Positions 1-23,565 of a DNA stretch of 23,626 nt are shown here, piece by piece; position 1 is the stretch's first letter; each line of letters begins with the position of its first letter. Both the position numbers and the translations under genes were made by a program. A model generated the notes under the pieces. The model had not been told where the DNA came from. It did no database searches and saw only the letters and a list, made by a program, of their open reading frames with translations. Source of the DNA: Treponema sp. (GTDB lineage Bacteria > Spirochaetota > Spirochaetia > Treponematales > Treponemataceae); assembly GCA_017453705.1 (NCBI GenBank), contig JAFTEK010000107.1:1-23626 (forward strand), written 5' to 3'.

Positions 1-125
1 GGATTGTATATCTCACCGTCAGAATATGAGGAGCCGCCGTTGCCGGTGCAGGAAATTAAGAATGCAGAATGCAGAATTAAGAATACAGAATGAAGAATGA
101 AGAGTCGGAGTGGTCGCTTGTCCAT
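1..125 (-). CDS. Lipoprotein, 5' part only (second copy of the leader-module lipoprotein)
   Basis: This is the first 41 codons of a lipoprotein gene that runs off the left edge of the window. The ATG at 125-123 follows an AGGAGG ribosome site with six bases between. The product begins MDKRPLRLF, then has a hydrophobic core made of repeated ILHS.F blocks, ending in a permissive lipobox FLISC with Cys26 as the predicted lipidated residue. A Gly/Ser-rich stretch follows. The visible protein differs from the lipoprotein starting at 2038 by one residue (Phe9 instead of Leu9), so the two are paralogues at least at the N-terminus. It is expected to be exported and membrane-anchored. Whether its body matches the paralogue, and whether it also carries a poly-G switch, cannot be seen here. 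Confidence 0.7.
   Translation of the reverse strand, partial: MDKRPLRLFILHSVFLILHSAFLISCTGNGGSSYSDGEIYN
53..101 (-). repeat. Degenerate 7-bp tandem repeat, seven units, inside signal-peptide codons
   Basis: Seven consecutive 7-mers on the minus strand (TTCATTC, TTCATTC, TGTATTC, TTAATTC, TGCATTC, TGCATTC, TTAATTT) encode the hydrophobic core of the lipoprotein signal peptide. Three units make seven codons, which explains the heptad-like ILHSVFL/ILHSAFL pattern. Gain or loss of one unit would shift the reading frame. Confidence 0.85.
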
Positions 126-163
126 TGTGTCCTCCTGTCAGTCGCTTCCGCTGGGTATGTGCT

Positions 164-192
164 ATTATATCACAGGTCGGGGCATGGGGCAA
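164..192 (-). promoter_or_regulatory. Sigma70-type promoter of leader module A
   Basis: On the minus strand a -35 TTGCCC (192-187) and a consensus -10 TATAAT (169-164) are 17 bp apart, with an extended TGA before the -10. Transcription should start near 157, giving a leader of about 30 bases to the ATG at 125. Confidence 0.75.
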
Positions 193-235
193 CTGCCAGC
201 GTAGCTTCAAGGCCGGCTGGGCGGAATTTGTATTT

Positions 236-643
236 TCATACAGAAACAATACACGGTTCTTCATAATTGGAAATAAGCTTATCATGAGTAAGAAGCAACA
301 TTTTTTCAGATTTCGCTTGGCATATAAGCATTCTGTCAAATGGGTCTTTATGTTGCCGGTCCACAGACTGTGAATACTTCAAAGAGCTTAAAAGAACTAT
401 TTGCCTTGGTAACAGTGGTAGAAAAATGATATCAGCCTTGATTGACAACTCATTCAGTCGTTTTCCCGAAAAAGGAAAGATGTCTGGATGTAAGGAATGT
501 TTAATCTCAGACTCCCAAATAGTCACAGGACTATAGTAAACTTCATTCGAGCTGTCAGATATGAGCAGCCTTGCCTTTTGTGAAAGTCTCTGGTCGTTGG
601 TGTGCAACCAGACTAAAATATGGGTATCAAGAAGCAATCTCAT
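236..643 (-). CDS. PIN-domain ribonuclease toxin, VapC-like
   Basis: This predicted type II toxin of 135 residues is of the PIN class, whose members cut RNA through a metal-binding acidic cluster. It opens with MRLLLDTHILVW, the hallmark of the COG3744-type VapC family (Asp6). Further candidate acidic residues are Glu44 in TIWESEIK, Asp100 and Asp103 in KDPFDRML, and Asp121 in LTHDKL. I chose the ATG at 643 because it lies one base after the antitoxin stop; a start at 676 would add eleven residues that overlap the antitoxin. The stop is eleven bases from the edge of leader module A. The gene is AT-rich relative to the housekeeping genes, which fits horizontal acquisition. Target RNA is unknown. 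Confidence 0.85.
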   Translation of the reverse strand: MRLLLDTHILVWLHTNDQRLSQKARLLISDSSNEVYYSPVTIWESEIKHSLHPDIFPFSGKRLNELSIKADIIFLPLLPRQIVLLSSLKYSQSVDRQHKDPFDRMLICQAKSEKMLLLTHDKLISNYEEPCIVSV

Positions 644-644
644 T

Positions 645-896
645 TTACACACCGAACAGGTTAGCGACTTCATCATCGTACATATTTATGTTATCAGGAT
701 ATCGAAATTCTCCTTCGGCAAGACCAAATATAGGATGACCTGACGCTTTAGTTTTTAAAGGTACTTCTTCAGGTTGTGAAAGACTGAGTATGATGTCCAG
801 AAACGAAGAAACTTGTTCAAAATACTGTTCAGGAACAGACATCAATTTTTTTTTCCCAAAACTGCGTATGGCATACGGCATCTCTCCTAATTCCAT
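645..896 (-). CDS. Antitoxin partner of the PIN toxin
   Basis: This small protein of 83 residues precedes the PIN toxin with one base between stop and start, the usual antitoxin-toxin arrangement. A central helix-like stretch (SVPEQYFEQVSSFLDI) is followed by a C-terminal segment KASGHPIFGLAEGEFRYPD and an acidic end, resembling the toxin-wrapping tails of DUF2281/VapB-like antitoxins; the family match is by pattern only. The start is uncertain. The ATG at 896 overlaps a good -10 box and has no ribosome site, so if that promoter is used translation must begin at the ATG at 881 (preceded by AGGAGAG) or later. A run of nine A within the coding strand (854-846) is a further possible slippage site. 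Confidence 0.75.
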   Translation of the reverse strand: MELGEMPYAIRSFGKKKLMSVPEQYFEQVSSFLDIILSLSQPEEVPLKTKASGHPIFGLAEGEFRYPDNINMYDDEVANLFGV

Positions 897-924
897 TGTA
901 CCATAAAACTGAAGATAGTGACAA
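895..924 (-). promoter_or_regulatory. Promoter of the antitoxin-toxin pair
   Basis: Minus-strand -35 TTGTCA (924-919) and -10 TACAAT (900-895) are separated by 18 bp. The predicted transcription start is near 888, inside the longest antitoxin reading frame. Autoregulation by the antitoxin is expected from family knowledge but no operator was identified. Confidence 0.5.
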
Positions 925-935
925 GTTTCGCATTG

Positions 936-944
936 CCCCCCCCC
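936..944 (-). repeat. Poly-G tract (9 G) between lipoprotein stop and antitoxin promoter
   Basis: Nine consecutive G on the minus strand lie seven bases after the lipoprotein stop codon and end eleven bases before the -35 box of the antitoxin promoter. Length change here would not alter a protein but could alter promoter geometry or read-through from the lipoprotein gene. Confidence 0.8.
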
Positions 945-950
945 GCGCCC

Positions 951-2038
951 TTATTGGATGGTGCAAACCGTCTGCCATTCCACCGAGCCGTCACCCAGCG
1001 TAACTTTGGAGACCATCTGGATTTGGTTTCCTGCATTCAGGGTGATTGAGACTGTGCCCCAAGTCCAGCTAGAGGAAGTGTCCAAGGTCGCAGTCAGCCA
1101 TGTTGACCCGTCCGTCGTATAGGAGTATGAGAGAGGCTCAAAGGAGAAAAGCCCCTCGTTCTGGAAGTCCAGAAGTTGGTCTATGTAGCTGAGGCTGTAA
1201 CTGATAGAATTTCCCGGGGCGGGGTCATAATACACGCCCGGTGAGTCTGCGTCCATCTTCTGGGACGTGTCCAGCTCCAGCTGCAGGCTGACCCCTTCCG
1301 CCGCAGTGAATGAGCCTGCGGAGAATTTGTAAATCGCCTTTTCTGCGGTGACGAGGGCAAAGCCTTGAACCGTCACGTTGTCGCCAAGCTTTGCGCTTAT
1401 CTCGTCTGTTCCCGCCGCCTTGTTATAGTCCCATGTTGTCCCGCCATCACTGCTGACCCGGTACACGTAGTAGTTCACGCCAGAAGGAACCAAAAGCTGT
1501 ACATCCAGCTTGTCGATGAGCGTGACTGCCAGGCTGCTGTCGCTGTCGGTCACGGTCTTGCTGGTCTTTCCGGTCTGCACGAGGATTCCGCTTGAGTCGC
1601 GCACGTCCATCTTGACGGTGACTGTGGAGCCTGTGGGAACGGCCGGTATGTTGAACGTGACCTTGCCGTCCGCGTCCGCAGTGGCGGTGTAGGATGTGCT
1701 GGTTCCGTTCACGGTAATCGTGAGCGTGACCGAGCCGCCGGATGGAAGACCTATCTCACTTGCTGCGAATGAAATCTTGCTTGTTTGTTCAGGCTGAGCA
1801 GTGCTCCCCCCCCCCCGGATAATAGCCGGACTATCGCCTTTGTGTCGCCTGCGTTGGAGAGGGTCAGTATGTCGTCAGAGGAAAAAGAGCTGCTTGAGCT
1901 GGAGGACGAGCCGGGATTGTATATCTCACCGTCAGAATATGAGGAGCCGCCGTTGCCGGTGCAGGAAATTAAGAATGCAGAATGCAGAATTAAGAATACA
2001 GAATGAAGAATTAAGAGTCGGAGTGGTCGCTTGTCCAT
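951..2038 (-). CDS. Phase-variable surface lipoprotein, frame broken at an 11-G tract
   Basis: Two reading frames form one gene. The upstream part (2038 to the G tract) gives MDKRPLRLL, a repeat-built hydrophobic core, lipobox FLISC (Cys26), a Ser-rich linker with eight Ser in a row, and TKAIVRLLSGGGG. The downstream frame is open from the G tract to the TAA at 953-951 and encodes about 290 residues of Ser/Thr/Gly-rich, beta-strand-like sequence (SGGSVTLTITVNGTS, then repeated Thr-rich segments), as in Ig-like or surface beta-sandwich domains. With 11 G the frame leaves the body and stops near 1751. With 12 or 9 G the whole gene reads through as about 362 or 361 residues. The ATG follows AGGAGG and the module B promoter. 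The body frame is intact, which argues for a reversible switch rather than a dead gene. Specific function is unknown; adhesion or antigenic variation is inference. Confidence 0.8.
1806..1816 (-). repeat. Poly-G tract (11 G), frame switch of the lipoprotein
   Basis: Eleven G on the coding strand sit between codons for LLS upstream and STAQPE downstream. The two frames join only when the number of G is a multiple of three. The deposited length of 11 is therefore one short of an ON state. Confidence 0.9.
1966..2014 (-). repeat. Degenerate 7-bp tandem repeat in the signal peptide of the complete lipoprotein
   Basis: Seven 7-mer units match those at 53-101 apart from one base in the first unit of the coding direction. 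They encode the ILHSVFL/ILHSAFL hydrophobic core. The unit length is not a multiple of three, so copy-number change would be a second frame switch in addition to the G tract. Confidence 0.85.
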
Positions 2039-2076
2039 TGTGTCCTCCTGTCAGCCGCTTCCGCTGGGTATGTGCT

Positions 2077-2105
2077 ATTATATCACAAGGCCGGGCATGG
2101 GGCAA
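2077..2105 (-). promoter_or_regulatory. Sigma70-type promoter of leader module B
   Basis: Minus-strand -35 TTGCCC (2105-2100) and -10 TATAAT (2082-2077) have a 17-bp spacer and an extended TGA before the -10. All three spacer substitutions relative to copy A leave the promoter boxes intact. Confidence 0.75.
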
Positions 2106-2139
2106 CCGCCAGCGTAGCTTCAAGGCCGGCTGGGCGGGT

Positions 2140-2409
2140 TTATACAGCCAGACTCGCTTGCAGGGAGGCTGTGACCGATTCGTTCTGGGTATTCAGATAG
2201 TCCAGCCTGTTGGAATATGTATCCTTTATTCCGTTAATGAACTCATCTATCCATGAAGGAGTGAGAACCTTTACATTTGCGAAATCCAAGGAAATTGTAT
2301 CGTCTTTATCCAGGCTGTTAAAGATATATGCCTTTGCCATAAGGAAGGCTTCTCTTCCTGCAGGGCGCGAGACAAGTACATCACCGAATTTACCAATGTC
2401 AACATTCAT
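2140..2409 (-). CDS. STAS-like (DUF4325) protein
   Basis: This is an 89-residue protein. The central LDFANVKVLTPSWIDEFING (about residues 41-60) fits the DUF4325 STAS-like pattern, in which an acidic-aromatic strand is followed by a Ser/Pro turn and a helix carrying DEF. STAS proteins typically act as phospho-switched partners of GHKL kinases, as in RsbS/RsbT. The ATG at 2409 overlaps the end of the ATPase gene by eleven bases, so the two are translationally coupled and almost certainly work together. The Ser in TPSW would be the candidate phospho-site by analogy, which is inference. The stop codon directly abuts leader module B. Downstream targets are not visible in the window. Confidence 0.75.
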   Translation of the reverse strand: MNVDIGKFGDVLVSRPAGREAFLMAKAYIFNSLDKDDTISLDFANVKVLTPSWIDEFINGIKDTYSNRLDYLNTQNESVTASLQASLAV

Positions 2410-2956
2410 TCCTTTCCTCCTTTGCTTCTAGTAAAGCTAGGCAGCCTGTGAAGGAAAAATCTTTTTCAGAAAACTGAACAATTCCATTTTCTATAGTGCA
2501 AGCTGCATTTCCCGACTGAAAATATAAAGACCAGCCTTTCTGTTTCACCGAGTCGCAGACAAATTTCAATCCGTTTCCTCGTTGTTCTGGGCTGCGACCT
2601 GAGATTCGCTCTGTAAATGCTACTTTTATGGCGTCCAAATCCGTGCTACAATCCTTTGCTTTCTTGAGAGAGGAACGTAAACCTCTTCCGAAATCTGCCA
2701 GGATAACATAGTCATCTTTAACATTAAAATATGCACCTCTAGCATGACCTTCCGAATAATTCCAGTTATGATCAAAGGTGTTATTCCCTATCTCTCCAAT
2801 AACAGCAGAGAGCAAATACCTGTTTGTCTGCATTACATAAGAATCTAAACGTGCTTGAAAAACGTCTCGTGTTGTACAGAAAAAATCCTCATCCTTTCTG
2901 GCAGATGCCTTTTCAATGAGTTCTATCATCTTTCCGACACTGTTTTTCCATTCCAC
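2399..2956 (-). CDS. GHKL-type ATPase (histidine kinase-like, no phosphoacceptor domain)
   Basis: This is a 185-residue protein with the three nucleotide-binding boxes of the Bergerat fold: N box EIGNNTFDHN (55-64), G1 box DFGRGL (88-93) and G2 box RGNGLKF (126-132). No membrane segment, sensor or dimerisation/His-phosphoacceptor domain is present, so it resembles anti-sigma/RsbT-type kinases rather than sensor kinases. I chose the GTG at 2956, which lies six bases after AGGAG supplied by leader module C. The next gene, a STAS-like protein, overlaps its 3' end; together they suggest a partner-switching pair. The gene is AT-rich compared with its housekeeping neighbours. Its regulatory target is unknown. 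Confidence 0.8.
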   Translation of the reverse strand: MEWKNSVGKMIELIEKASARKDEDFFCTTRDVFQARLDSYVMQTNRYLLSAVIGEIGNNTFDHNWNYSEGHARGAYFNVKDDYVILADFGRGLRSSLKKAKDCSTDLDAIKVAFTERISGRSPEQRGNGLKFVCDSVKQKGWSLYFQSGNAACTIENGIVQFSEKDFSFTGCLALLEAKEERNEC

Positions 2957-2962
2957 CGTAGT

Positions 2963-3044
2963 CTCCTGTCAGTCGCTTCCGCTGGGTATGTGCTATTATA
3001 TCACAGGTCGGGGCATGGGGCAACTGCCAGCGTAGCTTCAAGGC
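2963..3044 (-). repeat. Leader module copy C (promoter and leader only)
   Basis: This 82-bp stretch is identical to positions 132-213 of copy A. It includes the promoter, leader and part of the ribosome site but stops before the lipoprotein start codon; from there the sequence is unique and enters the ATPase gene. A different gene is thus placed behind the same expression signals. Confidence 0.95.
2995..3023 (-). promoter_or_regulatory. Sigma70-type promoter driving the ATPase/STAS pair
   Basis: Minus-strand -35 TTGCCC (3023-3018) and -10 TATAAT (3000-2995) with a 17-bp spacer are identical to the copy A promoter. The predicted start near 2988 gives a leader of about 32 bases to the GTG at 2956. 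Confidence 0.75.
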
Positions 3045-3089
3045 AACTGTCAGCGATGCTTCAAGGCTACCGCCAGCTATTTCGTGAGC
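3021..3089. repeat. Tandem repeat, 23-bp period, three units (third degenerate)
   Basis: Units 3021-3043 and 3044-3066 differ at only a few bases (both end in GCTTCAAGG). The third unit, 3067-3089, keeps the CCGCCAGC start and then diverges. The first unit overlaps the upstream edge of leader module C, so the array may be where the module recombined or inserted. Confidence 0.8.
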
Positions 3090-3175
3090 TTGCGTCACAG
3101 TGTTCCAAAGGGGTTGCCTCGGATTATTACCAAACAAGGGGTAAAATGGAGATATGAAAGGGAGTTGTCCGCGAC

Positions 3176-3244
3176 GCTGACAGAGCTGTATCCGCGAGGC
3201 TGACAGAGCTGTATCCGTGGGGCTGACACTGGACTGTCAAAGGG
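3176..3244. repeat. Tandem repeat, 23-bp period, GCTGACAGAGCTGTATCCG-type
   Basis: Units at 3176-3198 and 3199-3221 are nearly identical and the third, 3222-3244, is degenerate. The period equals that of the array at 3021-3089 although the unit sequences differ. The adjoining text GTTGTCCGCGACGCTGACAG recurs in similar form at 20080-20099. Between the two arrays (3090-3175) I see no gene. Confidence 0.8.
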
Positions 3245-3278
3245 TGAAACCCTGGAGTGTTTGGCTTGTTCTATATGT

Positions 3279-4019
3279 ATGCGCAAGGGTAAATTCATAT
3301 ATGCACTGATATATCTCACTGTTCTCTTTTCGTTGACCGGTTGCGGCGGCAGCCTGGGGGTTGCTGCCCGCGATGACGGCAAGGCGGACGTGTCGCTGTT
3401 CATGGACACCGGCAAGGCTGCTTCCAATATGATAGCGTCTATAATGGCCAGCCTTTACCCGTCTGCAAGCTCTGGAAAAGGGGCTGTCTTTACTCCGGAC
3501 AGGGCGGCGGCACTTGAAAAGAGCCTGTCCGGAGGCGAGCTGGAGGCGGTGAAAGCGGAAGCCCTCTCTCCTTCCGTCCTGTCTCTTGCGGCAACGATAA
3601 AGGATGCCGCGTCAAGGAATTCTGACAGCCAGCCGGGTGTCTTGCTTTCTTCCATGGTCAGGCAGTCCGGCGATAAGATGACGCTGACCCTTTCCCCGGA
3701 AGTCCTTCGCGGATTGTACGGGTCAATGGACGAGCAGACCAGGGGGTACGTTGACCTGTTTATGGCACCGGTGTTCACTGGCGAGGAGATGGAGGGAGCT
3801 GAGTATGCTGCCCTCATCGGTTCAATCTACGGCAAGGATATGGCTGACGAGCTTTCCACCGCCATGCTGGAACTGACTCTGGCCGCCCCAAAAGGCCGCA
3901 AGGTCAAAAGCTGTTCCGCAAGCGATGCCAGGCTGTCAGGAAGAAGGGCCAGCATCCAGCTGCCTGTATTGGACTTGCTTGTGCTAACGCAGGAAAGGAC
4001 TTACTCAATCACCTGGTAG
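3279..4019 (+). CDS. Predicted lipoprotein of unknown family
   Basis: The 246-residue product begins MRKGKFIYAL with a basic end, a hydrophobic core and the lipobox SLTGC (Cys22), then GG, so it should be exported and lipidated. The mature part is mostly predicted helix, rich in Ala, Ser and Met (segments such as MIASIMASLYP and DELSTAMLELTLAAP), with no domain I recognise. The ATG at 3279 gives the cleanest signal peptide but lacks a close ribosome site. An in-frame TTG at 3261 has GGAG four bases upstream and would add six residues, so it is a real alternative. The gene sits upstream of the DUF1266 pair, whose promoter begins on its stop codon. No convincing promoter of its own was found. 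Confidence 0.7.
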   Translation: MRKGKFIYALIYLTVLFSLTGCGGSLGVAARDDGKADVSLFMDTGKAASNMIASIMASLYPSASSGKGAVFTPDRAAALEKSLSGGELEAVKAEALSPSVLSLAATIKDAASRNSDSQPGVLLSSMVRQSGDKMTLTLSPEVLRGLYGSMDEQTRGYVDLFMAPVFTGEEMEGAEYAALIGSIYGKDMADELSTAMLELTLAAPKGRKVKSCSASDARLSGRRASIQLPVLDLLVLTQERTYSITW

Positions 4020-4048
4020 TTGCCCAGTTTTTAGAGATAGCCTATAAT
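4020..4048 (+). promoter_or_regulatory. Promoter of the DUF1266 pair, apparently leaderless
   Basis: -35 TTGCCC (4020-4025) and -10 TATAAT (4043-4048) have exactly 17 bp between. The -10 ends six bases before the ATG at 4055, so transcription should start at or next to the start codon. No ribosome site is present upstream of 4055, in agreement with a leaderless mRNA. The -35 directly follows the stop codon of the upstream lipoprotein gene. Confidence 0.7.
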
Positions 4049-4054
4049 AAAGCC

Positions 4055-5965
4055 ATGAATAAAGTTGTCAGCCCTTTCCGCCAGCAGTTTCTGCTGCTCC
4101 TTAGGCTTTTGCCGCTTCTCTGCCTTGCCTGTCCGTATGCCTTCGCAGAAGGGAATGCCGAGCTTCCCCTCTGGAATCCCGACAAGTGGGCGTCAGAATT
4201 CATATATGAGACAAAAGGCAACGAGTATGAGACGACTCGGATGAGGATATGCCAAGTTACCAATGACCCCAAATGGGATCCCGCTCTCCCTGACGTGTTC
4301 GGCGGCAAGGAAATAAAGCTCCGCGACCGAGAGGCCGAGGTAATCGCCAAGCTGGATTCCCTCACGAGCCTTATCAGGGCAGCGGAGCCTATACGTTGGA
4401 CGAAAGATGCCAGGCACTCTGCGGACGACGAGAAAATCTGCTACCACTATTCACTGCACCGCTATATCCTAAAGAACACCCCCACATCGTGCATGATCCT
4501 GTATTTCAGTAACGATGAGTGTAATCTTGAGCGGTTCTGCCTTGTTACGAGGAAAGTTCCCTTTACTGCAGGAGAGGAGTTCTTCCTGTACCCGAACGTA
4601 TATCCTGAGACTGGCAGAACCGTAATCGACTGGAAGGCCGACATCTCGTCCTGGAATGCCTTGACGGAATACGGGCGGTATTTTTGCATGTTGTCGCTGC
4701 CAGCAATTGCGAGAAACAATCTGAAGGTCTTTTCCGTCAATCCCGAGCCGACACAAAAAGGCAGCAGCCATATGACAAAATCCCGACAAAGACTTGAGGG
4801 CGGCTGGGAATGTTACTCAAGGGCAGAGCTTCTTGACCTCATCAAACGGTTCAACGACGATAAAGGCTTCCATGCGCCCTGGTATGACTATTTGCGCCAG
4901 TTTTTGCGCAAATATCCGGGCAAGACAGTGGAACAGATTTCCGTGCTGGAATGTCTGAGCATGAAAGACACGGCCTGCCTTTTTTATATCATGCAGGTGG
5001 AGAAGAAGCTTGGGGAATACGGGCTTCTCGCATGGGATTACGGAAGGCTGCTCACAGTGCTGCGCTGGGGCATCGGTGCAGGCTGGCTGAGCGAGCAGGA
5101 GGCCATGCAGTACGCCCGCCCGCTGATTGATGAGATTCTGGACTGCTACGCCTCGTGGGAGGACTACCTTGCCCACTATACAATCGGACGGGGCTTGTTT
5201 GCGCTCGACAGCGGCTACGATATACCTGTTCATCTATATGGGGTGTTGTACGATTCTCTAAACTATGCCCGCAACTACGAGACCGTAGACAAGGAGCACC
5301 AGCTGTCATTCCGCGGGGCCGCATTTCCGGCAAAAAAGCAGAACGGCAACCCAGTCCTCAGCTACAATGATGTATGGTACACACCGACAAGTCTTGCAAA
5401 GGAATGGGAGCGGGCTTATGCCATCTCCAAGAAGGACCCCTTCTACATCAAGATGCAGGATGCGTATGAACTGGAGATGTTTTGCGGTACCAAGCAGAAG
5501 ATTCCCTGCCTTGCAATCAAGTACATCGATTTGATTGAGCCAAAGGGACTGCCGCCCAAGGAGATACTGTCAAACTACGGAATAGCATCCAGCACACTCA
5601 AAAAAATCGTGCCGGAAAAACAAGGCATCCAGTCCCGCTACGGAATGTATGTTGACTTCTACGGCGCATACCTTTCTAAACTCCTTGAACTGGAAGATTA
5701 CCAGCAGCTGTACTGGGTGCTGTGGGATCTTGATGATGAAAACACAACGGATTCTACCCTGTGCCTCCTGTACTCCTTTTACTACTATGTGAAAGCAAAA
5801 GATGCAAAGAACCAGAAGAAGGTCATGGAGTACAAGCAGAAAGCCATCGACTTTTACATACGCCCCAGCGACAAGAAGTTGACAGCTGACGACGAGGAAG
5901 CACAGCCGATTTTTGACCAACTAGAAGAAATGTTGAGGAGGGGAATCCGTGTCACGTTCAAGTAA
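4055..5965 (+). CDS. Secreted DUF1266-domain protein (first paralogue)
   Basis: The 636-residue protein has an N-terminal signal peptide (leucine-rich core, LCLAC, then AFAEG). Cleavage after AFA is likely; the Cys in LCLAC could alternatively be a lipid site. Residues about 325-395 contain AWDYGRLLTVLRWG, GWLSEQEAMQYARPLIDEIL and SWEDYLAHYTIGRGLFAL, the signature of the DUF1266 family, whose biochemical role is unknown. The rest has many Tyr and Trp and no catalytic motif I recognise. It overlaps the next gene, a full-length paralogue, by 17 bases. The pair looks like a tandem duplication, with conserved blocks such as DPxLPDVFGG, SADD and YARPLIDE in both. Because of the leaderless promoter its translation may be set apart from that of the second copy. 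Confidence 0.75.
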   Translation: MNKVVSPFRQQFLLLLRLLPLLCLACPYAFAEGNAELPLWNPDKWASEFIYETKGNEYETTRMRICQVTNDPKWDPALPDVFGGKEIKLRDREAEVIAKLDSLTSLIRAAEPIRWTKDARHSADDEKICYHYSLHRYILKNTPTSCMILYFSNDECNLERFCLVTRKVPFTAGEEFFLYPNVYPETGRTVIDWKADISSWNALTEYGRYFCMLSLPAIARNNLKVFSVNPEPTQKGSSHMTKSRQRLEGGWECYSRAELLDLIKRFNDDKGFHAPWYDYLRQFLRKYPGKTVEQISVLECLSMKDTACLFYIMQVEKKLGEYGLLAWDYGRLLTVLRWGIGAGWLSEQEAMQYARPLIDEILDCYASWEDYLAHYTIGRGLFALDSGYDIPVHLYGVLYDSLNYARNYETVDKEHQLSFRGAAFPAKKQNGNPVLSYNDVWYTPTSLAKEWERAYAISKKDPFYIKMQDAYELEMFCGTKQKIPCLAIKYIDLIEPKGLPPKEILSNYGIASSTLKKIVPEKQGIQSRYGMYVDFYGAYLSKLLELEDYQQLYWVLWDLDDENTTDSTLCLLYSFYYYVKAKDAKNQKKVMEYKQKAIDFYIRPSDKKLTADDEEAQPIFDQLEEMLRRGIRVTFK

Positions 5966-7838
5966 GATTGTTTGCAAGTTTTTTTTGCTGTTGCTTTTTC
6001 TCTGCCTTGCCTGCTTCTCCGCCTTTGCCGAGGAGATAAAGGAGCTTTCCGTGTGGAGTCCCAACACAGAAGATACGGAATTTCTGTACGCGACGGAAGG
6101 CGATGAGCAAGAGTCGGTGCAGGTCAGGGTAAGCAGAATCGCCTCGACAAAGCTGTGGGATCCGATGCTGCCGGATGTCTTTGGAGGCAATAAGATAAAG
6201 CTGAGGGACAAGGAGTCCGATACCGTCGCCAAGCTGAATTCCAGCCCGAACCTTTTCAAGGCGGCGGAGCCTGTGCGATGGACAGAAAATATCTCCCACT
6301 CTGCGGACGACAAGAAAAAAAGCTATCATTATTCGCTGCACAGCTATATCCTCAAGAACAATCCTAAGCTGTGCATAATCCTGTTTTTCTCAGGCGATGG
6401 GAACGGACTTGAACAATTCTACCTTGTAAGGAGGGAAGTCCCATTTTCCGCCGGAGAGGATTTCTTCCTGTACCCCAACGTATATTATCCGAACGACTGT
6501 ACCATTAACAACTGGAAGTCCGACATCGAGGACTGGAATGCACTGTCTGAATACGAGCGGTATTTCTGTATGCTGTCGGCACCTCTTGTCGCCAACCATC
6601 CGCAGAAAATGTTTTCCGTCAACCCTGAGCCGCTTGTTGGCAATACTGAGAGCAAAACCTATTCCCAGGCAGTTCTTGAAAGAGACTGGAGCTGCAGTTC
6701 AAGGGCAGATCTTCTGGAACTCATAGATGGATTTAGAAACGAAAGCGGCTTTAGCCCGATGTATGAGGGCTTCCTTAAGCTTTTGGCCAAATATCCCAAA
6801 AAGACACCGGATGATATCTCCGCTATGGAATGTCTTACTATACATGATACAGCCTGCCTGTTCTATGTCAAGCAGATGGAAAAGAAACTCGGAGAACACG
6901 GTATGCTTGCATGGGACAACGGAAGAATACTCGGCGTGATGCGCTGGGGCATCGCCGCAGGCTGGCTGTCAGAACAGGAAGCCATGCAGTATGCCCGTCC
7001 GCTGATTGATGAGCTGCTTGACAGCTATGCCTCATGGGAGGACTACCTTGCCCATTATACAATCGGGCGAGGCCTGTTCGCACTTTCCCGCCGCCATGAT
7101 ATACAGGAGTACGAACACGATGAATTGCTCAATTCGCTCAACTATGCCCGAAGCTATGAGACCGTAGACACTAAGCACCAGCTTTCATTCCACGGAACCA
7201 AGTTCCCGGCAAAGAATCAGAAGGGCAATCCTGTACTTACATACAACGACGCATGGTACAAGCCTGCGGCGGACGCAAAGGCCTGGGAAGAAGTATACTT
7301 CCTCTCAACAAAAGTCATTAATTCCATCAGCCAGAATGACGAGCGCAAGATGCTGTCATTCTGTGCCAAAAAGAGCAATATTCCCTGCGCAGCATCCCTG
7401 GCAGTTATTCTCCGGGAGGCCAAAGGACTTGGTTCAAGAGAGCTTATCAGATATTATGACAGCGCGAATCCTGCGTTTGATAAAGTCGTACCCGAAAAAC
7501 GGGATTACAACACCGGGAGCAAGATTTATACCACATTCTACACTGTCTATTTTTATAGGTCTCTTGCCATAAATGACTTTGACCGGATGTACAAAGCCCT
7601 GCAAAAGCTCGATGACGAGAACACGATTGACGAGTCAATGTGCATCAGCTACTCATTGTATTACTATACAAAGATGAAAACCGAGAAAGACAGGGCAAAA
7701 ATCGATGTGTATGAGAAGAAAATAATAGGATTTTTCAGCCGTATACTGGCTGATGGCAGGCCGATTGGCGAAAATGAATTAAAACAGATATATGCCTGGT
7801 TGGAAGAAAACCTGAAGGGAGTCCTCTCAAAGTTTTAG
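5949..7838 (+). CDS. Secreted DUF1266-domain protein (second paralogue)
   Basis: The 629-residue product starts at a GTG at 5949, five bases after a strong GAGGAGGGG ribosome site that lies inside the end of the first paralogue. The signal peptide is short and leucine-rich with LCLAC followed by AFAEE. The DUF1266 block (about residues 320-390) has AWDNGRILGVMRWG, GWLSEQEAMQYARPLIDELL and SWEDYLAHYTIGRGLFAL, almost the same as the upstream copy. The C-terminal third has drifted most. The 17-base overlap implies translational coupling. Export to the periplasm or outer surface is predicted; function is unknown. A small hairpin (7842-7855, CCTTC/GAAGG) follows the stop codon but lacks a T tract. 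Confidence 0.75.
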   Translation: MSRSSKIVCKFFLLLLFLCLACFSAFAEEIKELSVWSPNTEDTEFLYATEGDEQESVQVRVSRIASTKLWDPMLPDVFGGNKIKLRDKESDTVAKLNSSPNLFKAAEPVRWTENISHSADDKKKSYHYSLHSYILKNNPKLCIILFFSGDGNGLEQFYLVRREVPFSAGEDFFLYPNVYYPNDCTINNWKSDIEDWNALSEYERYFCMLSAPLVANHPQKMFSVNPEPLVGNTESKTYSQAVLERDWSCSSRADLLELIDGFRNESGFSPMYEGFLKLLAKYPKKTPDDISAMECLTIHDTACLFYVKQMEKKLGEHGMLAWDNGRILGVMRWGIAAGWLSEQEAMQYARPLIDELLDSYASWEDYLAHYTIGRGLFALSRRHDIQEYEHDELLNSLNYARSYETVDTKHQLSFHGTKFPAKNQKGNPVLTYNDAWYKPAADAKAWEEVYFLSTKVINSISQNDERKMLSFCAKKSNIPCAASLAVILREAKGLGSRELIRYYDSANPAFDKVVPEKRDYNTGSKIYTTFYTVYFYRSLAINDFDRMYKALQKLDDENTIDESMCISYSLYYYTKMKTEKDRAKIDVYEKKIIGFFSRILADGRPIGENELKQIYAWLEENLKGVLSKF

Positions 7839-21505: not shown

Positions 21506-22861
21506 ATGGAAGAATTCGATGAATTCGGCCTGAGCCTGCCCGAAATCCTGCTCCCCAAGGACAGGAATCTGGGCAGCTGGTCTGTCATTGCCTGCGACCA
21601 GTACACCCAGGACGAGGGCTACTGGAAGCGGGCGGAAGTCGCCGCCGGGGGCAAACCCTCCACGCTGAACCTCATTCTGCCGGAGGTCTACCTGTCTCGC
21701 CCGGACAAGGCAGAGAGGATTGCCCGCATAAAAAAGACGATGGCCGCCTACCTTGCGGGCGGGGTCTTTGATGCGCCCGAGACCGAGGCCGTCTACGTGG
21801 AGCGGACGACGGCGTTCGGCAGGGTCAGGCACGGGCTTGTCATCGCAGTCGATTTGGAGGACTACGAGTGGAAGCCGGGCAGCCGTGCCCTCATCCGGGC
21901 GACCGAGGCGACCATCCCGGAGAGGATTCCCCCGCGCAAGGAGATACGCACTGGTGCACCGCTTGAAAGCCCCCACATCATGCTGCTTGTGGACGACCCC
22001 TCGCGCTTGCTTGTCGAAGGAACTGGTGAACTGGTCAAATCCGATGCTGCTGCGAAAGGCGGTACAACAGGCGGCGGCGTGCCGTTATACGATGGCGACC
22101 TTATGCTCGCATCCGGACACATCACGGGCTGGGCGGTCAAGGGGGAAAAAGCCCTCTCTCACCTGCACAAAGCCCTGTCCGCGCTCAAGGAAGCCGGATG
22201 TTCTGACGACGGCAGCGTCTTCCTCTTCGCGGTGGGCGACGGCAATCACTCGCTCGCCACAGCCAAGGCGGTCTGGGACGAGTACAAGGCGAAGAGCGGG
22301 CTGAGCGGGGCTGAGTTTGAGAACTGCCCCGTGCGCTATGCCCTTGTGGAAATCGTGAACATCTATGACAGCGGGCTTACTTTCGAGCCGATTCACCGGG
22401 TTGTCCTTGGCGACGAGGTGAACCCCGACGGCCTCATCGCGAATCTTGAAAAGGCATTGGGCGGCAGCCACCGGGATGTCGCCGATTCTGCCGCTCTTGA
22501 GGCGGCGGTCAAGGCCTCCAAGGCCTCGTTCGGATTCGTCTACATAGGCAAGGACGGCAGGCAGCACTTTACCCTGCTGGGGACTGGCATAACGGAGCTG
22601 GCGGTTAGCCGTTTGCAGCCCGCGCTGGACGACTACCTTTCCGGCAAGAACGACTTGGAGTTGGACTACATACACGGCGCGGACGAGGTGTTCCGTCTGG
22701 GCGGAGAGCCGGGTGCGGTCTCCATCATGCTGCCCCCCATCGCCAAGGACTCCTTCTTCGCGACAATCGCCGGGCGCGGCCCCCTTCCCCGCAAGAGCTT
22801 CTCTATGGGCGAGGCGAGCGAGAAACGCTTCTATCTGGAATGCAGGCGGCTGTTCGGGTAG
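21506..22861 (+). CDS. DUF1015 family protein
   Basis: The 451-residue cytoplasmic protein belongs to the DUF1015 family by its VIACDQYTQDEGYW start, the LILPEVYLSRPD segment, FGRVRHGLVIAVDLEDY, VGDGNHSLATAKAVW and the C-terminal YIHGADEVFRLGGE and FMMPP-like SIMLPPIAKDSFF regions. The biochemical activity of the family is not known to me; the conserved DGNHSLATA segment suggests a binding or catalytic site. The ATG at 21506 is preceded by GGAAGAAG at a rather long distance. The gene is GC-rich and ends one base before the PIN gene, which by contrast is AT-rich. Confidence 0.85.
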   Translation: MEEFDEFGLSLPEILLPKDRNLGSWSVIACDQYTQDEGYWKRAEVAAGGKPSTLNLILPEVYLSRPDKAERIARIKKTMAAYLAGGVFDAPETEAVYVERTTAFGRVRHGLVIAVDLEDYEWKPGSRALIRATEATIPERIPPRKEIRTGAPLESPHIMLLVDDPSRLLVEGTGELVKSDAAAKGGTTGGGVPLYDGDLMLASGHITGWAVKGEKALSHLHKALSALKEAGCSDDGSVFLFAVGDGNHSLATAKAVWDEYKAKSGLSGAEFENCPVRYALVEIVNIYDSGLTFEPIHRVVLGDEVNPDGLIANLEKALGGSHRDVADSAALEAAVKASKASFGFVYIGKDGRQHFTLLGTGITELAVSRLQPALDDYLSGKNDLELDYIHGADEVFRLGGEPGAVSIMLPPIAKDSFFATIAGRGPLPRKSFSMGEASEKRFYLECRRLFG

Positions 22862-22862
22862 T

Positions 22863-23369
22863 ATGCAGGTAGCTTTGAATAAAACAAAAGTCTATCTCGA
22901 TACCTCTGTAATCAGTTATCTTGAGCAGAAGGATGCCCCTGAGCAGATGCAGATAACCCGCAATGTGTGGGATACATTTAAAAGCGGGAAATATGATATC
23001 TATATATCAGATGTGGTTATTCGAGAGCTTTCAAAATGTTCTGACAGCCAGAAGCGTGCACTTTTGCTTTCTCATCTTGATGAGATCGATTACAAGTTGG
23101 TCGATGTCACACATGAGGTGTTTGCTTTCGCCGAACAGATGATAGATTTCGGTATCTTGAAGAAAAAGAGCTTTGACGATTGCCAGCATATAGCCGCAGC
23201 GGTCATTAGCAATTGTGATGTCATTATTTCATGGAACTTCAAGCATATCGTAAATTATGATACAATCAAAGGAATAAAGATTCTGACAACGACCGAAGGC
23301 TATAAAGACATTTTGATTTATTCACCGGAGGTATTCCAGTCGGAGAGGGAGGACGAGAATGGCAGTTGA
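22863..23369 (+). CDS. PIN-domain protein, likely toxin of a toxin-first module
   Basis: The 168-residue protein has the PIN fold acidic residues: Asp13 in VYLDTSVIS, Glu55 in VVIRELSK, Asp105-Asp106 in SFDDCQHIAAA, and an IISWNFKHIVN strand typical of this branch. I chose the ATG at 22863 because it starts just before the conserved first strand and one base after the DUF1015 stop; the longer open frame upstream is a shadow of DUF1015. The 3' end overlaps the next small gene by eleven bases. The composition is clearly more AT-rich than DUF1015, which fits insertion of an acquired module behind a core gene. RNase activity is inferred from the family. Confidence 0.85.
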   Translation: MQVALNKTKVYLDTSVISYLEQKDAPEQMQITRNVWDTFKSGKYDIYISDVVIRELSKCSDSQKRALLLSHLDEIDYKLVDVTHEVFAFAEQMIDFGILKKKSFDDCQHIAAAVISNCDVIISWNFKHIVNYDTIKGIKILTTTEGYKDILIYSPEVFQSEREDENGS

Positions 23370-23565
23370 TAGAGTCGAGGGAAAAGCTCCCGTTCTTTCC
23401 CCTCGTTTTGATGTTGAGGACATCAGAAAACTCCGTGAGTACAATTCACTCCGCCATATCAATATGACGGCTGAAGAAATCATTGCGGAAATCAAGGCCG
23501 ACACTGCTGACATTATCGAGCAGCTTGTAAAAAAAGGAAACGTCACAAGAATAGTGAGGGTATAA
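23359..23565 (+). CDS. Small protein, likely antitoxin of the PIN module
   Basis: This 68-residue protein overlaps the PIN gene and has a strong ribosome site (AGGGAGGA) just before its ATG at 23359. The N-terminal third is loop-like (GKAPVLSPRFDVEDIRKL). The C-terminal part, NMTAEEIIAEIKADTADI, is predicted helix. Similar small genes commonly follow PIN genes of this kind, in the reverse of the usual antitoxin-first order. No DNA-binding motif is obvious. The antitoxin role is inferred from position and size. Confidence 0.65.
   Translation: MAVDRVEGKAPVLSPRFDVEDIRKLREYNSLRHINMTAEEIIAEIKADTADIIEQLVKKGNVTRIVRV

Follow-up and report, generated by a model that had tools for sequence, protein, structure and literature searches.

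Three promoter-leader copies at a Treponema lipoprotein locus as possible direct-repeat scars of two insertions with long target duplication

Introduction

Why should one promoter and leader stand three times within 3 kb, in front of different genes? The question is raised by one end of a 23,626-nucleotide contig (JAFTEK010000107.1, here C372; "the window" denotes this whole stretch) of Treponema sp. GCA_017453705.1, a fragmented metagenome-assembled genome (MAG; 2.28 Mb, 393 contigs, 72% complete). An initial annotation had read the copies as a common expression head behind which cargo is exchanged. We consider it slightly better than an even chance that two insertions with long target duplication at a single lipoprotein locus left the three copies, termed A, B and C, as direct-repeat scars. 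In the labels used below, G000 is the genome itself, other G numbers are other genomes compared, C numbers are contigs and L numbers are fetched loci.

Repeat copies and their boundaries

The copies and the longer blocks that contain two of them are located as follows.

132..213, minus strand: core copy A, with one 23-bp repeat unit, a predicted promoter (TTGCCC-17-TATAAT, TG before the -10 box) and a Shine-Dalgarno sequence
2045..2126, minus strand: core copy B, 77/82 against either A or C; direct repeat on the downstream side of the ATPase/DUF4325 unit
2963..3044, minus strand: core copy C, 82/82 against A; upstream direct repeat of the ATPase/DUF4325 unit
1..224, minus strand: direct repeat A, with promoter, leader and lipoprotein head; truncated at the contig end and probably running on into contig C52
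1914..2137, minus strand: direct repeat B, 218/224 against A; similarity to C52 reaches about 1812

Over the 82-bp core, A and C are identical and B differs at five positions (93.9% identity), and the blocks 1-224 and 1914-2137, which include the lipoprotein N-terminus, agree at 97.3%, exactly the count first reported. A genome search with core C as query returns A at E 3e-37 and B at 2.5e-30, and the copies are therefore not chance resemblances. The core holds 5 of the 6 A/B mismatches of the 224-bp block (Fisher p=0.026). Immediately upstream of the core, 11 bp (CCGCCCAGCCG) are common to A and B and absent from C. Repeat A has its edge (224) 11 nt from the end of the VapC frame (236) and repeat B its edge (2137) 2 nt from the end of the DUF4325 frame (2140), and all copies read leftwards, both as originally noted.

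The whole core occurs three times in this 72%-complete genome, always inside the same 3 kb, with no copy in 38 other genomes searched (23 of the same genus; one genome per species throughout) and none upstream of nine other lipoprotein family members, four in the same genome and five in G069. The core is therefore local rather than part of a genome-wide cassette system. A recombination cassette system using this promoter across the genome is not supported, and the search that the initial annotation proposed for further copies with varied cargo yielded only these three, pointing to local duplication. One expression head before differing cargo is what the locus presents, and the wider lipoprotein family has several cases of like tails with unlike heads or the converse. 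The look of inserted units likewise stands, with the roles reversed: the apparent inserts are the ATPase/DUF4325 pair and the lipoprotein B tail with VapBC, and the promoter/leader is the apparent duplicated target. The earlier observation is confirmed and its interpretation partly supported.

Every core copy carries TTGCCC-17-TATAAT, with TG preceding the -10 box and a Shine-Dalgarno sequence following. The pattern TTGCCC-N17-TATAAT has six occurrences in the genome (reversed pattern, 0), four of which have a 23-bp unit immediately upstream: A, B, C and a site on contig C356 with an unrelated spacer. The 23-bp unit lies at 17 places at up to 3 mismatches, four of them in the window (reversed control, 0), and by eye is mostly intergenic and frequently arrayed, as at the 5' end of core C.

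3019..3077, minus strand: 23-bp intergenic repeat array, its last unit being the 5' part of core C

At its 5' end, the first third of the module appears to be a general intergenic repeat whose end would supply the -35 box of the predicted promoter; the promoter part of the core is unique to the locus. The core has no significant fold (z -0.6 to +0.2), and a search of 1-4300 for an RNA leader element gave no Rfam match at the gathering score. Among fetched loci chosen non-randomly (661 kb), 28 of 64 arrays at a TRF score of at least 100 have periods of 22, 23 or 46 bp with locus-specific sequence, examples being window 3019-3077 and 3168-3228, L004, L206, L209 and L244.

Units enclosed by the repeats

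In reading order the locus comprises core C, the ATPase-like gene, the DUF4325 (STAS-like) gene, core B, lipoprotein B, the VapB-like/VapC genes, core A and lipoprotein A.

2127..2962, minus strand: ATPase/DUF4325 unit, 836 bp between repeats C and B, start 6 nt and stop 13 nt from the edges
2399..2956, minus strand: GHKL-type ATPase-like protein, 185 aa, by motif judgement; no Pfam match at 0.01
2140..2409, minus strand: STAS-like DUF4325 protein, 89 aa; Pfam 28.4 bits, cut-off 23
236..676, minus strand: PIN-domain VapC-like toxin; Pfam PF01850, 39.4 bits, cut-off 23.6
645..896, minus strand: weak VapB-like antitoxin candidate; NCBIfam E=0.0099, 16.4 bits, below the cut-off of 60
936..944, minus strand: 9-G tract; a promoter-like site, TTGTCA-18-TACAAT (924-895), follows shortly downstream, ahead of VapBC

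The ATPase/DUF4325 unit fits its repeats closely, beginning with a GTG start 6 nt behind core C and its Shine-Dalgarno sequence and ending with a stop 13 nt before core B. The motifs EIGNN..DHN, DFGRG and RGNGL mark the 185-aa protein as what we take to be a GHKL-type ATPase; a G045 homologue matches HATPase_c_2 only at E=0.067, and an alignment of the ATPase against PDB sequences gave no match up to E=1. Identification of the locus as a defence system was rejected, PADLOC returning for its four small proteins only a weak DrmA match to the ATPase (E=0.0043). In the second unit, the frame of the weak VapB-like candidate precedes and overlaps that of the PIN-domain toxin.

Lipoproteins A and B

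Lipoprotein B is interrupted at a homopolymeric tract, and its coding parts are as follows.

1751..2038, minus strand: lipoprotein B, first frame, with signal peptide and lipobox; frame lost at the poly-G tract
1806..1816, minus strand: 11-G tract at the junction of the two lipoprotein B frames
951..1712, minus strand: lipoprotein B tail in the other frame, 69% identical to the intact protein P0002
1967..2016, minus strand: heptanucleotide array coding for the signal-peptide core; counterpart in copy A at 54-103

The array encodes the signal-peptide core ILHSVFLILHSAFLI. The window starts inside repeat A, cutting lipoprotein A, and the end of contig C52 of the same assembly overlaps this start exactly over 33 bp, a 33-mer that a search with 1-131 finds otherwise only at B. 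C52 carries a 342-aa frame that, by hand arithmetic, is in phase with lipoprotein A. The join was deduced, with the pieces compared separately, and lipoprotein A probably continues on C52; the A/B repeat would for this reason measure about 325 bp, ending near the poly-G tract of B. Along C52, A is identical to B over the first 119 bp compared and similarity then drops abruptly. Near the probable lipoprotein A, L063 6445-11142 (G000:C52) encodes a 1566-aa DUF4011/helicase/MTES_1575 protein that matches the candidate defence family PDC-S37 with 1330.8 bits.

Behind the shared head, the A and B tails have 31% identity over 190 residues. The closest relative of the B tail, P0002, is a 368-aa protein with a different signal peptide, whose structure model is mostly beta strand (mean pLDDT 72.5, residues 1-64 below 50). 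The A tail is 37% identical to P0006 and 35% to P0002, which between themselves have 40% over 219 residues. One nearly identical head thus precedes two lipoproteins whose sequences differ clearly.

Proposed insertion history

In the first proposed event, the 836-bp ATPase-like and DUF4325 unit, which has no room for a promoter of its own, would have entered right behind the Shine-Dalgarno sequence of the lipoprotein promoter, duplicating 82 bp of promoter and leader, so that the unit gained promoter C and the lipoprotein retained B. In the second, a longer tract would have been duplicated, made up of 11 bp of the first unit's edge, the promoter, the leader and about 70 codons of the lipoprotein head, now surrounding a unit of a different lipoprotein tail with VapBC. 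Lipoprotein A would have been left intact and lipoprotein B made a chimera, with a separate copy of the head in front of each. Since the 11 bp shared by A and B are missing from C, the larger duplication seems to have followed the arrival of the ATPase pair. Recombination between the repeats would loop the units out or place another gene behind the first promoter. The poly-G, 5-, 7- and 8-mer tracts before, in or just after the signal peptide would switch expression through slipped-strand mispairing, and in this assembly lipoprotein B is interrupted at such a tract.

Comparable units at other sites

Of 59 genus genomes, 9 encode the ATPase, the present one among them, with only part of the gene in G063. 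A DUF4325-like gene adjoins it in all eight other genomes (by eye; Pfam-confirmed in G045), in differing contexts. Across the 661 kb of fetched loci, a scan for direct repeats of at least 40 bp and at least 84% identity, spaced 350-5000 bp apart, gave 11 rows representing 10 distinct intervals. Two of these enclose an ATPase/DUF4325 pair, between the 82-bp repeats of the window and between 94-bp repeats at 96% in G045, where the repeat is unrelated to that of the window and consists of the first 94 bp of prmC behind prfA, the complete prmC following. Two enclose a VapC-type gene, bounded by the 224-bp repeat of the window and by a 58-bp repeat at 100% on G000:C279; the C279 gene scores 51.7 bits for PIN (cut-off 23.6) and 72.6 for NCBIfam VapC, under the cut-off of 80, and the short gene before it has no recognised antitoxin match. 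Two more enclose small units without an assigned family, one between 60-bp repeats on G000:C213, the other on G069:C53 between 158-bp repeats that by eye overlap the end of a topoisomerase-like gene. A by-eye assignment of GNAT enzymes in these C213 and C53 units was dropped, Pfam and NCBIfam not confirming it.

Two features expected of insertion with long target duplication are present. Direct repeats lie at both unit edges, of 82 and at least 224 bp in the window and of 58, 60, 94 and 158 bp elsewhere, and the target is left complete, as with intact prmC in G045 and promoter B in the window. Separately, the same scan recorded at L083 2929-3571 (G050:C39) a 73-bp direct repeat, at 86%, enclosing about 0.5 kb.

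Several points weigh against two insertions. Flanking direct repeats within 700 bp accompany only 2 of the 9 ATPase/DUF4325 loci and are absent from 7, and the scanned loci were picked for lipoproteins, the ATPase, DUF1266, integrases or 23-bp repeats. The other four intervals do not hold units of this kind: two come from repeats of lipoproteins (L187, L064), one from a protein with internal repetition (L075), and the content of L083 is ambiguous. No empty site or strain variant was seen in a comparison of one genome per species, and the MAG is fragmented, one of its contigs ending within repeat A. The second unit starts inside a lipoprotein gene, where family recombination or tandem duplication fits about equally well. 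C is closer to A (82/82) than to B (77/82), and later conversion or mutation must therefore be assumed. The separate ancestry of the A tail is only weakly indicated, because P0002 is nearly as close to it as P0006.

Alternative explanations

The strongest competitor dispenses with unit insertion: the promoter and lipoprotein head would have undergone local tandem duplication, and divergence, gene conversion and recombination within the family would have come afterwards, an explanation that is possible but clearly short of even chances. It accommodates the confinement of all copies to 3 kb and their absence from the 38 other genomes, as well as the make-up of the A/B repeat, which is the promoter and head of one gene family in which other pairs share heads with unlike tails (G198 5286/8260). 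The uneven A/B mismatches, suggesting conversion, fit it too. It leaves unexplained why unrelated direct repeats bound the ATPase/DUF4325 pair at G045 prmC and the VapC-type gene on C279, and why the unit has its start and stop codons so near the edges of the repeats. Of the two, insertion with long target duplication appears the more likely, though not proven.

A small mobile promoter element built on the 23-bp repeat, similar to a miniature inverted-repeat transposable element (MITE) or repetitive extragenic palindromic (REP) sequence, is unlikely: the unit is dispersed, its end gives TTGCCC and C356 offers a second site joining it to TTGCCC-17-TATAAT, but the promoter part is found nowhere else in the genome, by eye copy C lacks terminal inverted repeats and a short target duplication, and no transposase is present among the neighbouring genes examined. 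Beyond the 23-bp unit itself, this candidate found no support.

Misassembly of the short-read metagenome is more improbable still. The fragmentation into 393 contigs at 72% completeness and the ending of the window within a repeat, with a 33-bp overlap to C52, would suit it; the copies nevertheless have unlike flanks, and similar structures occur in other assemblies. An 82-bp repeat is also shorter than typical reads.

Least probable of all is a chromosomal integron cassette array with the repeats as IntI recombination sites: IntI is encoded in the genome (C95:898-1833, 429.5 bits against a cut-off of 265) and exceeds the cut-off in 5 of 7 family genomes and 0 of 14 control genomes, and the units all face one way and include a VapC-type gene, but the integrase sits on a different contig, the 60-bp attC-like sites of a G198 array fold (z -2.4 to -3.3) where the 82-bp core does not, the window has no copy of their attC core even with 3 mismatches allowed, scanning 1-3300 for a simple RYYYAAC...GTTRRRY pattern gave no site, and the core holds a promoter and Shine-Dalgarno sequence instead. 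Chromosomal integrons are known in Treponema (PMC3607928); the locus resembles them in its one-direction, cassette-like units and the IntI of its genome, and differs in that no attC was found at its unit boundaries, so the candidate was set aside. The G198 array itself, at L243 8767-13459 (G198:C26), is a chromosomal integron; behind its IntI come units that contain two 60-bp attC-like sites and, judged by eye, a pair resembling VapBC.

Slippage tracts and mosaicism in the lipoprotein family

With a profile built from 11 heads and a threshold of E<=1e-10, the lipoprotein family is detected in 7 of the 200 genomes of the genus, per-genome counts being lower bounds (16 candidates scored). Members A, B, C213 and C320 match no Pfam or NCBIfam family above cut-off (best LtfC, E=0.0035). 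Heads were counted in those of the 78 profile rows where the lipobox Cys could be placed, 64 in all, and the poly-G test used the 60 whose flanks are complete; L208 takes up two rows as one gene, and C52 and window A probably also represent a single gene. Poly-G of at least 8 within 180 nt of the lipobox Cys occurs in 21 of the 60 complete heads versus 9 of 1921 control windows drawn from the same loci rather than from random genomes (p=3e-27). Merging 12 rows by hand left 11 distinct short-unit arrays (5, 7 or 8 nt), 9 of them located at heads; one G198 member has a CTTCT array that encodes LLFSSLLFSS. Slippage-prone repeats are carried by 29 of the 64 heads and not by 35.

Among the 78 rows, eight genes have a frame split beside a tract of 7-12 G with both pieces found: window B, L072, L201, L202, L203, L204, L208 and L226. 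Members C213, C320 and G198:C7 bear a tract and are still open. Poly-G of at least 9 gives 28 overlapping matches genome-wide, or 22 tracts, a number that a hand estimate does not place clearly above simple expectation; what is enriched is their position. Taken from these tracts and split frames, the family is probably phase-variable. A search of CC-licensed PMC literature found no paper on phase-variable lipoproteins of rumen treponemes.

Tails and heads have also been exchanged, judging by alignments, in several genes though not all. C320 and a G198 gene have a common tail from +460, 92% identical over 2.4 kb and up to 98-100%, with about 34-62% identity upstream of that point, and flanking genes compared between the two genomes reach 78% and 80% (two comparisons). 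The same G198 gene shares its head (85%) with a neighbour of different tail. Between G069 and G164, L073/L200 and L075/L205 have tails 88% alike behind unlike heads. Other pairs align through head and tail as ordinary orthologues, for example G123 L227/G181 L194 at 90%. At L068 3865-6256 and L187 8725-11115, a lipoprotein tail and the downstream 0.6 kb are 92% (up to 98-100%) identical between two species, with flanking genes about 80% identical and differently arranged, a likeness that may reflect either recent transfer or a chimeric contig.

Relation to known systems and significance

Restriction-modification genes of Helicobacter pylori are reported to insert with long target duplication (Nobusato and Kobayashi 2000; Furuta 2010). 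The present locus resembles those reported insertions in its small selfish-type unit, long direct target repeats and intact target gene. It differs in that the host is a spirochete, the cargo consists of a VapC-type gene and an ATPase-like/DUF4325 pair, and the duplicated target is a promoter-leader captured by the unit, with no empty site seen. In the passages of PMC3120642 consulted, the only repeats named are an 8-bp duplication and one of 44 bp that flanks an island.

Two further systems resemble the lipoproteins themselves. Neisseria opa genes carry CTCTT leader repeats, and their multigene organisation, slippage-prone coding repeat in the leader peptide and diversity through inter-copy recombination (PMC3960869) are matched here; the present proteins are unlike Opa in being lipoproteins with a lipobox, their repeats are mostly poly-G and 7/8-mers, their switching is predicted, and no Opa family is among the Pfam/NCBIfam matches of the members scanned. 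In Treponema pallidum, poly-G phase variation concerns tprE/G/J/L and tp0126, with a tprL tract of 7-11 and promoter tracts described in passages of PMC7864442. Tracts of similar length lie near treponeme surface-protein genes in both cases, but unlike the T. pallidum promoter tracts many of those here are in the reading frame after the lipobox, and no family link was found.

More speculatively, and with greater doubt than attaches even to tandem duplication, toxin-antitoxin-type and ATPase-like/DUF4325 modules in these treponeme-like spirochetes may be compact mobile units that make target duplications of 58 to 300 bp, spare the host gene and are able to capture a promoter and/or signal peptide; where they enter loci of the mosaic, probably phase-variable lipoprotein family, the repeats would make a reversible locus, in which recombination picks the gene behind the head and slippage decides its translation. 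If these readings are true, uncultured gut treponemes carry a large Opa-like lipoprotein repertoire that switches and shuffles. Immune evasion would not be the obvious driver in that habitat, candidates being phage, protozoan predation and attachment. The small ATPase/DUF4325 pair would then behave as a mobile selfish or defence module, like toxin-antitoxin units, and long target duplication would be a route to promoter capture.

Other features of the window

At the right end, 22713-23565 holds by eye from the open-reading-frame list a second PIN-like gene and then a short gene. Positions 4055-7838 contain two tandem DUF1266 paralogues, 53% identical, with two further in tandem on C264 and relatives in G069; the first paralogue has TTGCCC-17-TATAAT at 4020-4048.

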